In this document: one piece after another, positions 11,029 through 44,465 of the stretch | Layout: every line of letters starts with the position of its first letter | Position numbering within the stretch: the stretch's first letter is position 1 | Origin: Campylobacteraceae bacterium | GTDB lineage: Bacteria > Campylobacterota > Campylobacteria > Campylobacterales > Sulfurovaceae | DNA length: 48,387 nt | Reading direction: 5' to 3' | Assembly (NCBI GenBank): GCA_027080995.1 | Contig: JALWNT010000050.1 | Coordinates: 1 to 48,387, forward strand | The notes under the pieces: generated by a model | Seen by the model: only the letters and a program-made list of their open reading frames with translations | What the model was told of the DNA's origin: nothing | Database searches by the model: none | Translations under genes and position numbers: made by a program

Positions 11029-11242
11029 ATTTGGGTATTAGGTATTGGGTATTGGGTATTGGGGGCGCCTGCGGCGCAGTCGTACGGCGTACGTTCTGGC
11101 GCCTTCGGCGACGGCATCGGGCAGTGGACATCGGGCATTGTGTACGCCTGTGGCTTGACCGGAAAACACCTAAGCTTTATGAAGAGATATTTCCCATCCA
11201 AAATCCAAAATCCAAAATCCAAAATCTCTCGCTTTCTCACTT
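11029..11242 (+). repeat. Intergenic mosaic mraY-murD
   Basis: Directly after the mraY stop are four GGGTATT heptads (11031-11060). GC-rich palindromic words follow (GGCGCCTGCGGCGC, GGCGCCTTCGGCG) and degenerate CATCGGGCATTG words. Four CCAAAAT heptads lie at about 11194-11226. The order and G/C polarity match the other mosaics. No gene is apparent. Confidence 0.85.
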
Positions 11243-11271
11243 GTTTCATCGGAGCACGCTCCGATGAAACA
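11242..11271 (+). promoter_or_regulatory. Start-site hairpin of murD
   Basis: GTTTCATCGGAG (11243-11254) and CTCCGATGAAAC (11259-11270) pair perfectly around the loop CACG, with one more T-A pair outside. The Shine-Dalgarno CGGAG lies in the 5' arm and the ATG (11264) in the 3' arm. Folded RNA would hide both. Confidence 0.75.
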
Positions 11272-16564: not shown

Positions 16565-16615
16565 CGTTTCTCTTTTCTTTGTCGCGAAACAAAGAAAAAG
16601 AAATGAAGAGAAACG
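16565..16615. repeat. Long inverted repeat between glnA and azlD
   Basis: CGTTTCTCTTTTCTTTGT pairs with an ACAAAG...GAGAAACG arm around the CGCGAA loop. The inner 36 nt (16573-16608) recur exactly at 32491-32526. Both are in convergent gene gaps, so a two-way terminator or a dispersed palindrome are both possible. Confidence 0.75.
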
Positions 16616-27115: not shown

Positions 27116-27152
27116 CGATCATTTTGCACCCGTAGGGAGCACAAAATGATCG
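27116..27152 (+). promoter_or_regulatory. Start-site hairpin of hisH
   Basis: CGATCATTTTG (27116-27126) and CAAAATGATCG (27142-27152) pair perfectly over 11 bp. The 15-nt loop carries the Shine-Dalgarno GGGAG (27135-27139), and the ATG (27146) is in the 3' arm. Confidence 0.75.
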
Positions 27153-27874: not shown

Positions 27875-27898
27875 CATTTTCGACGGAGGTCGAAAATG
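27875..27898 (+). promoter_or_regulatory. Start-site hairpin of hisA
   Basis: CATTTTCGAC (27875-27884) pairs with GTCGAAAATG (27889-27898). The 4-nt loop GGAG is the Shine-Dalgarno core itself, and the ATG ends the 3' arm. Confidence 0.75.
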
Positions 27899-32490: not shown

Positions 32491-32526
32491 TTTTCTTTGT
32501 CGCGAAACAAAGAAAAAGAAATGAAG
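32491..32526. repeat. Second copy of the 36-nt palindromic repeat
   Basis: Identical over 36 nt to 16573-16608. The arms are TTTCTTTGT and ACAAAGAAA with loop CGCGAA. Confidence 0.8.
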
Positions 32527-32687: not shown

Positions 32688-32743
32688 ACCCCAATATACC
32701 AATAACCAATACACCAATACACTAATAACAAAGATGCCGATTT

Positions 32744-33502
32744 TCAAAGAAAATCGGCATCCCTCATACTCGCCGCCGCCGGATTGCGCCGCTTCTTCAA
32801 CTCCATATCGATCGGCTTGAGATCCAGAGGGCGCAGGGAGGCGACGGTACCGCTGCGGACCCCTTCGCTGGGGGGGTCGTAAAGCAGAAAGCCGTTTTCG
32901 TAGAGCCCCATCCGCACCGGCGTCGCGCTGGAGTAGGTCGTCACGATCACATCATCCGAGACGATGCGACGCAATTCGCCAAAATACTCCCGGGTCCAAA
33001 GCAGGGGATTTTTCTTGGGACTGAAGGGGTCCTGATAGACGATATCGACGGGCCGATCGATTTCGGGAATCCGTTTCCGGGCGTCGCCGAAGAGGATCTT
33101 GATGCGAAAACGCTCCTCTTCATACACGCCTTCCCGGCTCACCGCTTCGATGATCGGCCGCAGCGGCTCAAACTCCGGCGGATAGTCGAATCGCTCCAAC
33201 GAAGCCACCAATTCCCGGTCGAATTCGGGAGAGAGGATCGTGACTCTGCGCGGACCGGGAAGCTCCCAAAGATGATAAAGGGTCGTCCAACTGTTGTACC
33301 CCAGACCGAAACAGACATCGAGGATCGTGATCTCCTCTTTGGGAGGCAGAAGGGAAAAGGCGGGCAGGATGTGCTTTTGCAGCGATTCGCGCAGCGCGCC
33401 GTCGCGGGTGGAGTGGTAACACTCGTCGAACCGTTCGGAGTAGAGAGTGACGCTCCCGTCGGCGGTGCGTACGGGACGTTTCCTGTCGGCAGAATGTGGC
33501 AT
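32744..33502 (-). CDS. MnmC-like tRNA methyltransferase domain protein
   Basis: Resembles the methyltransferase half of MnmC, which finishes 5-methylaminomethyl-2-thiouridine at tRNA position 34. The 252 residues contain the SAM motif ITILDVCFGLGYNSW and the MnmC-style YQDPFSPKKNPLLWTREYF, with TYSSATPVRMGLYENGF near the end. The FAD oxidase half of E. coli MnmC is absent. ATG 33502 follows the previous stop by 8 nt; no strong ribosome binding site is visible, so coupling is likely. It is the third gene of the luxS unit. Confidence 0.75.
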   Translation of the reverse strand: MPHSADRKRPVRTADGSVTLYSERFDECYHSTRDGALRESLQKHILPAFSLLPPKEEITILDVCFGLGYNSWTTLYHLWELPGPRRVTILSPEFDRELVASLERFDYPPEFEPLRPIIEAVSREGVYEEERFRIKILFGDARKRIPEIDRPVDIVYQDPFSPKKNPLLWTREYFGELRRIVSDDVIVTTYSSATPVRMGLYENGFLLYDPPSEGVRSGTVASLRPLDLKPIDMELKKRRNPAAASMRDADFL

Positions 33503-35704: not shown

Positions 35705-36469
35705 ATGTCATCCATCACCAACGAACACACGCAGCGCTGGAAAACCGCGGCCCTTCTGCTTCTTCTGATCGCCGCCGTGGGAGTGATCGATATCCCGGCG
35801 CTCACCTGGCTCTTCTTCGGAGCCGTCTATTTCTTGGCACTCAAAGAGGCGATGCAACTCTTCCGGGTCGCCGACTCGTCCCTCTATCTTTATGCCGCGG
35901 GGATCTGGATCCTAGCCCCTTTCTACCCCCATCCCAGTGACCTCGCCTTCGCCGCGACCCTGATCCAAGGCGGAATCCTCGCCTACCGACGCCGTCTCGA
36001 AATCCGCAGTCTCTTTCCGATCCTCTATCCGACGGTGGGGATGCTCTTTCTCTGGATGCTCTATCGGGAGTACGGGATGCTCTCTTTGCTCTGGATTCTC
36101 GTCATTGTCGCTCTGACCGATGTGGGAGCCTACTATACAGGGCGGAAACTGGGCAAAACCCCTTTTTGTCCCACCTCTCCTAAAAAAACGCTCGAGGGAG
36201 TCTTCGGAGGGATCGCCTTGGGGACGCTGGGCGGCTTTCTCCTGATGATCGGCCATCAAAATCTCTTCTTCGGCACTCTTTTCGTCGCCCTCCTCACTTC
36301 CGTCGCCTCCGTCTTCGGCGATCTTTTTGAGAGTTATCTCAAACGGGAAGCCGGCGTCAAAGACAGCGGCACTCTCCTCCCCGGACACGGCGGCGTCCTC
36401 GACCGGATCGACGGTTACCTCTATGCGGCAGTGGCGCTCTATGTCCTGCTGAAATTGACGGGAAGCTAG
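35705..36469 (+). CDS. cdsA: Phosphatidate cytidylyltransferase
   Basis: Makes CDP-diacylglycerol from phosphatidic acid and CTP in the inner membrane; feeds pssA. The 254 residues have about seven helices. The CdsA signature near the C-terminus is clear: SYLKREAGVKDSG followed by LLPGHGGVLDRIDG. SVFGDLFES and TDVGAYYTGRKLGKTPF are also typical. dxr follows after a heptad spacer. Confidence 0.95.
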   Translation: MSSITNEHTQRWKTAALLLLLIAAVGVIDIPALTWLFFGAVYFLALKEAMQLFRVADSSLYLYAAGIWILAPFYPHPSDLAFAATLIQGGILAYRRRLEIRSLFPILYPTVGMLFLWMLYREYGMLSLLWILVIVALTDVGAYYTGRKLGKTPFCPTSPKKTLEGVFGGIALGTLGGFLLMIGHQNLFFGTLFVALLTSVASVFGDLFESYLKREAGVKDSGTLLPGHGGVLDRIDGYLYAAVALYVLLKLTGS

Positions 36470-36565
36470 AATGAATTTTGGATTTTGGATTTTGGATTTT
36501 GGATGGAACAGAAGCGGGATAATAAACCACAATCCAACATCCAACATCCAACATCCAACATCTCA
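36470..36565 (+). repeat. Intergenic mosaic cdsA-dxr
   Basis: Four GGATTTT heptads right after the cdsA stop (36473-36505), a short spacer, then four CCAACAT heptads (36532-36563). This is the simplest mosaic, with no core palindromes. The CCAAAAT word before murD is the complement of this locus's left word. Confidence 0.9.
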
Positions 36566-36593
36566 CCATGAAAATTCAAAGGAATTTTCATGG
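36566..36593 (+). promoter_or_regulatory. Start-site hairpin of dxr
   Basis: CCATGAAAATTC (36566-36577) and GAATTTTCATGG (36582-36593) pair perfectly over 12 bp around the loop AAAG. The loop and adjoining G form the only ribosome binding site (AAAGGA), and the ATG (36590) lies at the end of the stem. The 5' arm also contains an ATG, out of frame with dxr. Confidence 0.78.
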
Positions 36594-37666
36594 TGATCCT
36601 CGGTTCCACCGGCTCCATCGGCCTCAATACCCTCGAGATCTGCCGGCGTTTTCAGCTCCCGATCGAAGGGCTCGTCGCGGGGAACAATCTCGAACTGCTC
36701 CAGGAGCAGATCGACGAGTTTCAGCCCGAGCTGGTGGCCATCGCCGATCCCGCGCGCATCGGGGAGATCCGTCATCGACGGGTCTACGCCGGAGCGGAGG
36801 GGATCTTGCAACTGCTGGAAGAGAGCGCCTCCTCCCGGGTCGTCAACGCCCTGGTGGGCTACGCCGGTCTGGCGCCTACCCTCAAAACCCTGAATCTTGG
36901 CCGCAACCTGGCCCTAGCCAACAAAGAGTCCCTCGTCGTCGCGGGAGCTTTTTTGGAGCGCACGAAGATCTTTCCCATCGATTCGGAGCATTTCGGCCTC
37001 TGGTATCTGCTAAACGACCGTCCGTTTCGCCGTCTGGTCATCACCGCCAGCGGCGGGGCCTTTCGGGATCGTGATCCCGAAAGCATCCGCCGCGCCGCCT
37101 ACGCCGAAGCCCTGCGCCACCCCAACTGGTCGATGGGAGACAAGATCACCATCGACAGCGCCTCGATGGTCAACAAACTCTTCGAACTCCTCGAAGCCCG
37201 CTGGCTCTTCGACACCTCCGACGTGGATGCCGTGATCGAGCGCCGCTCCGTCGTCCACGCTCTGGTGGAATTCACTGACGGCTCCACCACCGCCCACCTC
37301 GCCGGTGTCGATATGAAACTCCCCATCGCCTACGCCCTGGAGTGCCCGATCACCGAGCCGATACTTGAACCGGTGGATCTGCTGGGCATCGGCCCCATCG
37401 CCTTCGAGGAGATCGACACCCGGCGCTACCCCCTCTGGCAACTCAAAGCAGAGCTTCTCGCCCGCCCTCGCCTCGGCGTCGTCCTCAACGCCGCCAACGA
37501 AGCGGCGATGGCCGGCTTCCGAAAAGGGCGCTACGATTTCGGCACGATGGCCGACAAAATCCTCGATGCCTGGCGCCGCTTCCGTGGCCGGGAACCCGAA
37601 AGCCTGGGGGAAGTGATGGAGATGGACAAAGAGGTGCGACGTTACGTTCTAACGAATGAGGAATAA
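36590..37666 (+). CDS. dxr: 1-deoxy-D-xylulose 5-phosphate reductoisomerase
   Basis: Second step of the MEP isoprenoid pathway: NADPH-dependent conversion of DXP to MEP. The 358 residues begin MVILGSTGSIGLNTLEI with the dinucleotide-binding loop. ALANKESLVVAG, PIDSEHFGLWYLL, ITASGGAFRD, MGDKITIDSASMVNKLFELLEA and VLNAANEAAM are canonical. The N-terminus is a few residues shorter than most. The start is buried in a hairpin. Confidence 0.97.
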   Translation: MVILGSTGSIGLNTLEICRRFQLPIEGLVAGNNLELLQEQIDEFQPELVAIADPARIGEIRHRRVYAGAEGILQLLEESASSRVVNALVGYAGLAPTLKTLNLGRNLALANKESLVVAGAFLERTKIFPIDSEHFGLWYLLNDRPFRRLVITASGGAFRDRDPESIRRAAYAEALRHPNWSMGDKITIDSASMVNKLFELLEARWLFDTSDVDAVIERRSVVHALVEFTDGSTTAHLAGVDMKLPIAYALECPITEPILEPVDLLGIGPIAFEEIDTRRYPLWQLKAELLARPRLGVVLNAANEAAMAGFRKGRYDFGTMADKILDAWRRFRGREPESLGEVMEMDKEVRRYVLTNEE

Positions 37667-37670
37667 AAAA

Positions 37671-37982
37671 ATGAGAAAAGAGGAATTGTTGCGAGAGCTT
37701 CGTCGGTTGAAAAGAGAACTTTCAAAAGAGGGGTTCATCATAGAGTCTCTATGCGGTTCTTATGCCAGGAACGAAGCAACTGAAACGAGTGACATTGATC
37801 TTCTTTATCACGTCAACGAGAATTTTCTGAAAAAATTCGGTGGGTTCGTTGCCTTTTCAAAACTGGAGGAGATAAAAAAAGCTTTGGAGCTTCGTCTAAA
37901 AAGAGAAGTGGACCTCATCCCAAGTAACAACCTTTCCAAAACAGCAAAAAAATATCTTGAAGAGGAATGTATATATGTCTAA
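37671..37982 (+). CDS. MntA-type nucleotidyltransferase antitoxin
   Basis: Minimal nucleotidyltransferase of the MNT-HEPN system. Family members inactivate the HEPN toxin by adding AMP to a tyrosine. From ATG 37671 (GAGGAA 7 nt upstream) it is 103 residues. The GSX10DXD motif is exact (G29, S30, D41, D43), and a later VDLIP holds the third Asp. It begins 5 nt after dxr. Codons are clearly AT-richer than in flanking genes, suggesting transfer. Confidence 0.9.
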   Translation: MRKEELLRELRRLKRELSKEGFIIESLCGSYARNEATETSDIDLLYHVNENFLKKFGGFVAFSKLEEIKKALELRLKREVDLIPSNNLSKTAKKYLEEECIYV

Positions 37983-38355
37983 GCGCTCACAGGAAGCTAA
38001 GGCGGCTTTCATTCTCGAGCAGATAGATCGTATAGAAAAAATCATTGAACGGCACGATGGAATTGTTAAAGCACTAGAAGATTTCGAAGGAGAAATGGCA
38101 ATTTTTATGGGTATTTCCCAAATTGGGGAAAGTTTTTCAAAACTTGATGAAATCTACATAGAACGTTTTGGCCTTATCGAGGAGAGAAAGGGATCCTACT
38201 ATACCCGGAACTATATCGTACACGATTATGAAAATGTAGATCGATTGATTATTGAAGATATACTTCGGACACATCTTCCAAAACTCAAAGAAAAAATAAA
38301 AGATCTTTATGAATATCTTTCAATGGAAAATGAACATCGAAGGAAGTCCAAATGA
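37975..38355 (+). CDS. HepT-type HEPN toxin
   Basis: HEPN ribonuclease toxin partner of MntA. From ATG 37975 (GAGGAA 8 nt upstream) it is 126 residues and all-helical. The RX4HXY motif is intact (R78, H83, Y85 in RNYIVHDY); R and H are catalytic, and the Tyr is the AMP-acceptor in studied pairs. It overlaps mntA by 8 nt and the next gene by 4 nt (ATGA). The intact motifs suggest a live module. Confidence 0.9.
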   Translation: MSKRSQEAKAAFILEQIDRIEKIIERHDGIVKALEDFEGEMAIFMGISQIGESFSKLDEIYIERFGLIEERKGSYYTRNYIVHDYENVDRLIIEDILRTHLPKLKEKIKDLYEYLSMENEHRRKSK

Positions 38356-38885: not shown

Positions 38886-39210
38886 AGAGTGAAGAGTTCG
38901 CGCCTTCAGCGCTATCACGTCGTTTGAATCGCGTCGCAAGTCGCAAGTCGCAAGTCGCAAGAGACGTTATCTCCGGCAACGGCATTGGGGGCAGGGCTTC
39001 AGCCCTGCATACGGAACTGAAGTCCCGCCTCCAAAAGTACGCGTTGCGAAGCAAAGCCCCAAGATCCAACACCCAACACCCGACACCCAACATCAAAAGC
39101 ATTGCGATGCAACACATACCGAAATTCTCCATTCTTTATTCTCCATTCTCCATCCACAAGCAGAGCTTTCGCTGTTTCTCATTCATCACTCATCACTCAT
39201 CACTCGAAAC
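38886..39210 (+). repeat. Intergenic mosaic hydrolase-tsaD
   Basis: No gene is apparent in 340 nt. From left: AGTGAAG words at the stop, GTCGCAA heptads (38937-38962), two GGGCTTCAGCCC/AACTGAAGTCCC palindromes (about 38990-39030), a degenerate GCGTTGC/GCAAAGC hairpin (39041-39057), CCAACAC heptads (39064-39092), ATTCTCC heptads (39123-39153) and ATCACTC heptads (39184-39205). The last three tracts are G-free or nearly so. Confidence 0.85.
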
Positions 39211-39241
39211 TCGGAAGGAGCGGCTATGTCGCTCCTTCTGA
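39211..39241 (+). promoter_or_regulatory. Start-site hairpin of tsaD
   Basis: GAAGGAGCG (39214-39222) pairs with CGCTCCTTC (39230-39238), extended to 12 bp with one G-U. The Shine-Dalgarno AAGGAG is fully in the 5' arm and the ATG (39226) in the 7-nt loop. The 3' arm is coding sequence. Confidence 0.75.
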
Positions 39242-40245
39242 GCATCGAATCCAGCTGCGATGACAGCTCTCTCGCCCTGACCGAGATCGAGAGCCGCAAA
39301 CTCATCTGGCACAAGAAGATTTCCCAGGAGGCGGAGCATGCCCGCTACGGCGGGGTGGTCCCGGAGCTGGCCAGCCGTCTGCACGCGGTGGCCCTGCCCG
39401 ACCTGCTCGAGACGGCGAAGCCCTGGTTTCCTCAGATCTCCGCCGTTGCCGTCACCAACGAACCGGGCCTGGCGGTGACGCTCAACGAGGGGGTGATGAT
39501 GGCCAAAGCCTTCGCTACCTTCGAGAAACTCCCCCTGATTCCTGTGCATCACCTCAAAGGGCACATCTACTCCCTCTTCATCGAAAAACCCACCCGGCTG
39601 CCGATGCTGGTGATCCTCATCAGCGGCGGGCATACGATGGTCTTGCGGGTGCGGGGGCTCAGGGAGATGGAGATCCTCGCCAGCAGTATGGACGACAGCG
39701 TGGGAGAGAGCTACGACAAGGTAGCCAAAATGATGGGCCTGGGCTATCCCGGCGGCCCGATCGTGGAGGCCCTCGCCCGCGAAGGGAACCCCGAGCGTTT
39801 CGATCTGCCGGTCCCTCTGCGCAACTCTCCGCTTATCGCCTTCAGCCTCTCGGGCCTCAAAAACGCCGTACGCCTCACCGTCGAAAGGCTGGGCGGCCCC
39901 GAAGCGATGAACGAACAGGACCGCCGCGACCTGGCCGCCGCTTTTCAAAAAGCCCTCATCACCCATTTGACTCAAAAGATCCGCAAAATCCTTGCTGGCG
40001 AATCGATCCCCGACGTCGCCCTGGTCGGCGGCGCCAGCGCCAATCTGACCATCCGGGAAGCCTTCGACTCCCTTTGCCGAGCGTACGGCAAACGCCTCCA
40101 CACCGCCAAGCTGGAGTTTTGCTCCGACAACGCCGCAATGATCGGCCGCTACGGCCTCGACGCCCTGGCGGAGGGCCTCACCTGCTCTCCCGAAGCGATC
40201 ACCGTCTCCGCCAACCGCAAACTCCAGCCGGGGATGAAGTTGTGA
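39226..40245 (+). CDS. tsaD: tRNA N6-adenosine threonylcarbamoyltransferase TsaD
   Basis: Transfers the threonylcarbamoyl group to A37 of ANN-decoding tRNAs, with TsaB/TsaE. The 339 residues start MSLLLSIESSCDDSSLAL. The metal-site HLKGHIYSLF has the HxxxH, then ISGGHTMVL, DDSVGESYDKVAKMMGLGYPGGP and VGGASANLTIR. Length is typical. The start is in a strong hairpin. Confidence 0.97.
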   Translation: MSLLLSIESSCDDSSLALTEIESRKLIWHKKISQEAEHARYGGVVPELASRLHAVALPDLLETAKPWFPQISAVAVTNEPGLAVTLNEGVMMAKAFATFEKLPLIPVHHLKGHIYSLFIEKPTRLPMLVILISGGHTMVLRVRGLREMEILASSMDDSVGESYDKVAKMMGLGYPGGPIVEALAREGNPERFDLPVPLRNSPLIAFSLSGLKNAVRLTVERLGGPEAMNEQDRRDLAAAFQKALITHLTQKIRKILAGESIPDVALVGGASANLTIREAFDSLCRAYGKRLHTAKLEFCSDNAAMIGRYGLDALAEGLTCSPEAITVSANRKLQPGMKL

Positions 40246-40523: not shown

Positions 40524-40550
40524 TCATTTTCTTCCGGAGGAAAAAAATGA
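40524..40550 (+). promoter_or_regulatory. Start-site hairpin of lgt
   Basis: TCATTTTCTTCC (40524-40535) pairs with GGAAAAAAATGA (40539-40550) with a single C-A mismatch. The loop is GGA, so the Shine-Dalgarno GGAGG (40536-40540) spans the loop, and the ATG (40547) is in the 3' arm. Confidence 0.7.
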
Positions 40551-44437: not shown

Positions 44438-44465
44438 CCGAAGGGGATATCGTGAGTCCCTTCGG
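44438..44465 (+). promoter_or_regulatory. Start-site hairpin of rnr
   Basis: CCGAAGGG (44438-44445) pairs with CCCTTCGG (44458-44465), with one extra G-U inside. The Shine-Dalgarno GAAGGGG is in the 5' arm and the GTG start (44452) in the loop; the 3' arm is coding sequence, as at tsaD. Confidence 0.68.

Follow-up and report, generated by a model that had tools for sequence, protein, structure and literature searches.

Hairpins that occlude ribosome-binding sites, RNA thermometers among them, enclose both the Shine–Dalgarno (SD) sequence and the start codon of an mRNA, and compensatory change usually ranks as the best sequence evidence for an RNA structure. Inverted repeats are also shaped at the level of DNA. 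Template-switch (quasipalindrome) mutagenesis is a documented source of perfect hairpins and also maintains them (PMC8794818), and reporters in Escherichia coli record quasipalindromes being perfected by the same route (PMC7202029). In nematomorph mitochondria, perfect inverted repeats overlap coding sequence and are actively kept matched; their positions are partly common to species, and template switching has been proposed (PMC6649704). Tandem arrays of 7 nt units between genes are known from the Beggiatoaceae, as TAACTGA repeats (PMC4679880), and from Xanthomonas and Nostoc, as G-rich heptads (PMC4692102).

The window analysed here (the whole stretch of DNA, 48,387 nt) carries at the start of dxr a perfect hairpin that is one of a genome-wide class of palindromes at gene starts and stops, abutting heptad arrays. 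The nematomorph palindromes are intragenic and both of their arms are coding, whereas here one arm is coding, the other is spacer, and the edge lies beside an array. Unlike the heptads of Beggiatoaceae, Xanthomonas and Nostoc, the arrays here come in many different units, run G-rich outward and meet genes at palindromic junctions. Most of the Beggiatoaceae arrays lie just upstream of start codons, and the abstract and structure section of the TAACTGA paper do not mention a palindromic junction. We found no published account of gene-edge palindromes linked to heptad arrays in the open-access literature, and because the search covered that literature only, a prior description is not disproven.

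The first-pass annotation had described a perfect 12-bp hairpin at dxr and had proposed that it gates the gene. The hairpin is real and perfect, but longer: an inverted-repeat search found 15 of 15 pairs between TCACCATGAAAATTC and GAATTTTCATGGTGA (Table 1). As had been noted, the loop AAAG provides most of the AAAGGA SD site (36578–36583), with four of its six bases in the loop and the rest in the 3′ arm, so that SD site and ATG are both enclosed; the decoy ATG in the 5′ arm is likewise out of frame, and starts a frame of 168 codons in the ORF list. The hairpin alone folds at −20.9 kcal/mol and the dxr leader at −56.9 kcal/mol (z = −4.9 relative to shuffled sequences). Chance is a very poor explanation: when the 48-kb window was shuffled locally five times, three hairpins of 9 bp arose and none of at least 10 bp. 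The two 7-nt arrays upstream, one of (GGATTTT)n past cdsA and one of (CCAACAT)n preceding dxr, can pair with each other. A terminator or promoter at the dxr site was ruled out, as the cdsA–dxr spacer had no match to either and the interval 36300–36800 had no intrinsic terminator (a GC-rich stem leading into a T run) on either strand. A dxr-specific riboswitch or thermometer was also rejected, since no Rfam family reached its gathering score at the hairpin; the only hits were chance microRNA matches, far below.

Table 1. Positions of the dxr palindrome, neighbouring heptad arrays and other gene-edge palindromes in the window
Feature	Position	Strand	Details and evidence
dxr palindrome, 5′ arm	36563..36577	+	Non-coding, bears ATG 36568; 15 nt, 100% complementary
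dxr palindrome, loop AAAG	36578..36581	+	First four bases of AAAGGA; sequence, fold
dxr palindrome, 3′ arm	36582..36596	+	SD end, spacer, ATG 36590–36592, next codon
dxr, 358 aa	36590..37666	+	ORF; profile search, TIGR00243, E 1e-107, over cut-off
Heptad array (CCAACAT)n	36532..36562	+	Stops at base of 5′ arm; period-7 scan, junction measurement
Heptad array (GGATTTT)n	36475..36504	+	Directly past cdsA, faces (CCAACAT)n; repeat search, period-7 scan
murD start palindrome, 13 bp	11242..11271	+	SD GGAG pairs with CTCC ahead of ATG 11264
hisH start palindrome, imperfect	27116..27152	+	ATG 27146
hisA start palindrome, 10 bp	27875..27898	+	Loop = SD GGAG; ATG 27896
tsaD start palindrome	39210..39242	+	SD in 5′ arm; ATG 39226 near loop
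lgt start palindrome	40524..40550	+	ATG 40547
Ribonuclease-R-like gene, weaker start palindrome	44438..44465	+	GTG 44452; N. salsuginis orthologue has one too
Stop palindrome, 13 bp	32733..32761	-	Spans stop codon of gene ending 32744; TTATTAG/GTATTGG-type repeats outward

The closest dxr loci belong to genomes of the Nitratifractor clade. All eight array-bearing genomes of this clade with a readable dxr start, the window's included, have a hairpin there, of differing sequence; one relative has CAGGACCATAAAAGCC-GGA-GGCTTTTATGGTCCTG, and N. salsuginis has GGGCCATAAAAATTCC-AAA-GGATTTTTATGGTCC. The expectation that close relatives would show compensatory change was therefore borne out, with pairing kept while sequences differ. 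Neither the array-less members of the genus nor the other Campylobacterota inspected had a hairpin at dxr. The window's genome is assembled in 127 contigs, but an origin in chance or assembly is hardly credible: shuffles yield none of these structures, and similar ones are found in independent assemblies and in the N. salsuginis genome. Because the latter is closed (a single contig of 2,101,285 bp; type-strain genome, PMC3156401), palindromes of the dxr type are not an assembly artefact.

The survey of the class drew on roughly 1.0 Mb from the window's genome and 0.8 Mb from N. salsuginis, with genes called by a simple codon model. In the window's genome, 32 starts had a heptad array and 8 of these carried a strong hairpin (25%, against 0.3% of other starts); the counts were 1 of 391 for starts lacking an array and 1 of 197 where the spacer was short. 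Shuffles of the array-bearing group produced none. Over the initial 400 kb of N. salsuginis, the corresponding figures were 6/29, 1/162 and 0/144. Start palindromes also occur at tsaD, murD, hisA, hisH, lgt, pgsA, xseA and mqnC (gene names other than dxr come from reading translations, without a family search), nearly always touching a 7-nt tandem array, and their stem energies reach −41 kcal/mol at housekeeping genes. Stop codons near arrays are spanned in the same way, for example by GGATATTCAGCGTTA-TAAA-TAACGCTGAATATCC, followed by GATTTTGGATTTTGG. Perfect hairpins of at least 9 bp amounted to 5.2 and 3.2 per kb at the gene edges of array-bearing spacers, 0 and 0.16 per kb inside those spacers, and 0 and 0.07 per kb in the adjoining coding DNA.

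Among tandem arrays, period 7 strongly predominates, with 67 perfect arrays that reach three copies or more against 9–16 for other periods from 4 to 12, and most of the heptad arrays are intergenic (85/103 and 100/114). Nine gene families were compared over the genus: of 65 starts with an array, 52 had a hairpin (the other 13 lacked a strong palindrome), against 4 of 36 array-less starts. In 50 of the 53 hairpins with a located array end, that end lies no more than 5 nt from the 5′ arm, so essentially the whole stretch from loop to array is paired at any stem length (9–23 bp). Loop geometry is mostly gene-specific across species: the SD is the loop in dxr, pgsA and hisA; in tsaD the loop holds the ATG and the 5′ arm the SD; and in murD the SD is paired with CTCC. 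For lgt, murD and a hydrolase gene at 38352, the hairpin is missing in one of two species, where the array is absent or different. Insertion of arrays into pre-existing hairpins was ruled out, as start hairpins are all but absent from these genes in genus members that lack arrays. In genome G002, one heptad (CTACCCA) occurs at several unrelated loci (L216, L228, L245 and L310) at which relatives carry other units, as if arrays were spreading or being homogenised within the genome.

Of the arrays within 60 nt of a gene, 47/53 at starts and 79/84 at stops have their G-rich strand directed outward; this polarity, in which that strand reads 5′ to 3′ on leaving the gene at either edge, is telomere-like in genomes G000 and G001 (N. 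salsuginis). Together with the specificity for gene edges, the contact with arrays at starts and often at stops, and the strand-symmetric mismatches described below, such a polarity is what might be expected of a selected DNA-level function, in which hairpins or cruciforms would form boundaries that stop unstable heptad arrays from entering genes, or would be marks left and used by array insertion. We regard this as rather unlikely, given that many arrays (the 13 starts above) have no strong palindrome and that no enzyme or binding protein for such a role was found. A reverse transcriptase was ruled out as the array maker, because RVT_1 is absent from every array-bearing genome and present only in G004 and G010, both without hairpins. 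Loss of ExoI was discarded as a discriminating cause: its C-terminal domain (PF08411) is absent from 13/13 genomes, and therefore does not tell members with arrays from those without.

Pairwise comparison of orthologues gave 601 differences in the 3′ arm, of which 537 have a complementary counterpart in the 5′ arm (303 of 329 within coding sequence); the percentage is an upper view, as the pairs are non-independent and the hairpins were chosen for pairing. That differing orthologues can each pair is solid fact. Selection at the mRNA level should leave G-U intermediates and exclude A-C. Scored symmetrically on the sense strand over 780 pairs of orthologous start hairpins, a small and partly related sample, the non-Watson–Crick pairs were 6 GU and 12 AC; a genome-wide scan at threshold 9 gave 4 GU and 6 AC at starts, and 5 of each at stops. 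In the control, acceptor and T stems of tRNAs from these genomes, there were 25 GU and 1 AC (Fisher p 9e-6). Mismatches in the palindromes thus show no bias of the strand-specific kind expected from RNA. The tsaD stem of G002, which is 23 bp long, mirrors at its far end a synonymous ATC/ATA difference close to codon 7; extra RNA stability should matter little there. Comparison of G000 with G002 at this gene is suggestive of multi-base rewriting of an arm in one event. Because the covariation comes without the G-U excess of tRNA stems, the pairing seems to be kept at the DNA level and not by selection on the dxr mRNA.

These data bear directly on the proposed gate, in which an mRNA hairpin, selected in the sense RNA, would hide the SD and start codon and either sense temperature or yield to a helicase, a protein or the ribosome. 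The hairpins do cover SD and start codon, orthologues retain them with compensatory changes, and the loop contains the SD in 24 + 4 of 56 cases. RBS-occluding hairpins and RNA thermometers differ, however, from what is seen here: G-U is not preferred, very stable stems occur on many unrelated housekeeping genes, and stop codons carry the same palindromes. The structures follow the arrays and not gene function, disappearing where the array is gone or altered, and Rfam has no match above threshold. Since the feature belongs to array-adjoining gene edges generally and lacks the mark of RNA selection, gating of isoprenoid synthesis by the dxr hairpin is not supported by these comparisons, and a translation gate appears unlikely. 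Protection of mRNA ends, or intercistronic processing, would require that cuts in the unstructured arrays leave a hairpin at the 5′ and 3′ ends of each cistron. The occurrence of hairpins at the start and stop edges of genes, separated by arrays, and a cdsA–dxr spacer without promoter or terminator match, would suit such a scheme; selection on sense RNA should nevertheless have favoured G-U over A-C, which the equal counts at stops do not reflect, and a 5′ hairpin hiding the start codon would be costly. We consider it improbable.

Our data are most readily accommodated by a model, to which we assign a probability of about 50%, where gene-edge palindromes are kept by template switching and the dxr hairpin is an inverted DNA copy of the gene's first bases at the array junction. 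The palindromes would be created and kept perfect through short-range template switching during replication, the nascent strand folding back at the gene edge as in the quasipalindromes of E. coli, so that the spacers of this lineage would be in the course of being rewritten by self-templated DNA plus heptad repeats. Copies would persist where SD and start codon stay usable, in the loop or from the copied arm, and an influence on dxr translation, should there be one, would be a tolerated by-product and not a dedicated gate. Of known processes, replication template switching is the one that fits, sharing the perfect or near-perfect inverted repeats, the homogenised arms and the compensation without RNA intermediates; that it acts here we infer. 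In contrast to template-switch mutagenesis as described, the palindromes are limited to gene starts and stops, tied to heptads and genome-wide in one clade. Their confinement to edges, with nearly none inside the same spacers, is not predicted by plain switching, which also does not explain why arrays stop at the palindrome base. The mostly conserved loop position of each gene across species looks as it would under selection, and the GU and AC counts on which the model draws are small and phylogenetically dependent.

Given the edge restriction and the conserved geometry, a selected function, a junction-forming process or a DNA-level role may be involved. Tentatively, one Nitratifractor clade may have an undescribed feature, in which gene edges carry palindromic copies of the bases that begin or end the gene, with G-rich 7-nt arrays running outward beyond them, built and maintained by a process dedicated to DNA ends or to array insertion (a fold-back followed by repeat addition). 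If true, such a process would yield strong covariation without RNA function. As about 90% of the differences in start-site hairpins are compensated without a tRNA-like G-U signature, copying of DNA can mimic RNA covariation at ribosome-binding sites. The clade also offers a tractable system for how heptad repeats, which are unexplained in several bacterial groups, meet and reshape gene edges.

Several neighbouring features were also recorded. In the window, a MntA/HepT-like gene pair (37656–38355; type VII toxin–antitoxin profiles, below NCBIfam cut-offs) separates dxr from the hydrolase gene at 38352; the N. salsuginis orthologue of the hydrolase has an array and a start palindrome instead. 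A short dispersed palindrome, GCGTTGC-N2-5-GCAACGC, often followed by NNACC, lies at many intergenic sites of the window's genome (34 matches in 1.0 Mb) and of N. salsuginis (30 in 0.8 Mb), counted on both strands with possible double counting. An identical hairpin, TTTTCTTTGTCGCGAAACAAAGAAAA, occurs at 16573–16598 and 32491–32516, with near copies on contigs C29 and C58, and is a dispersed repeat.
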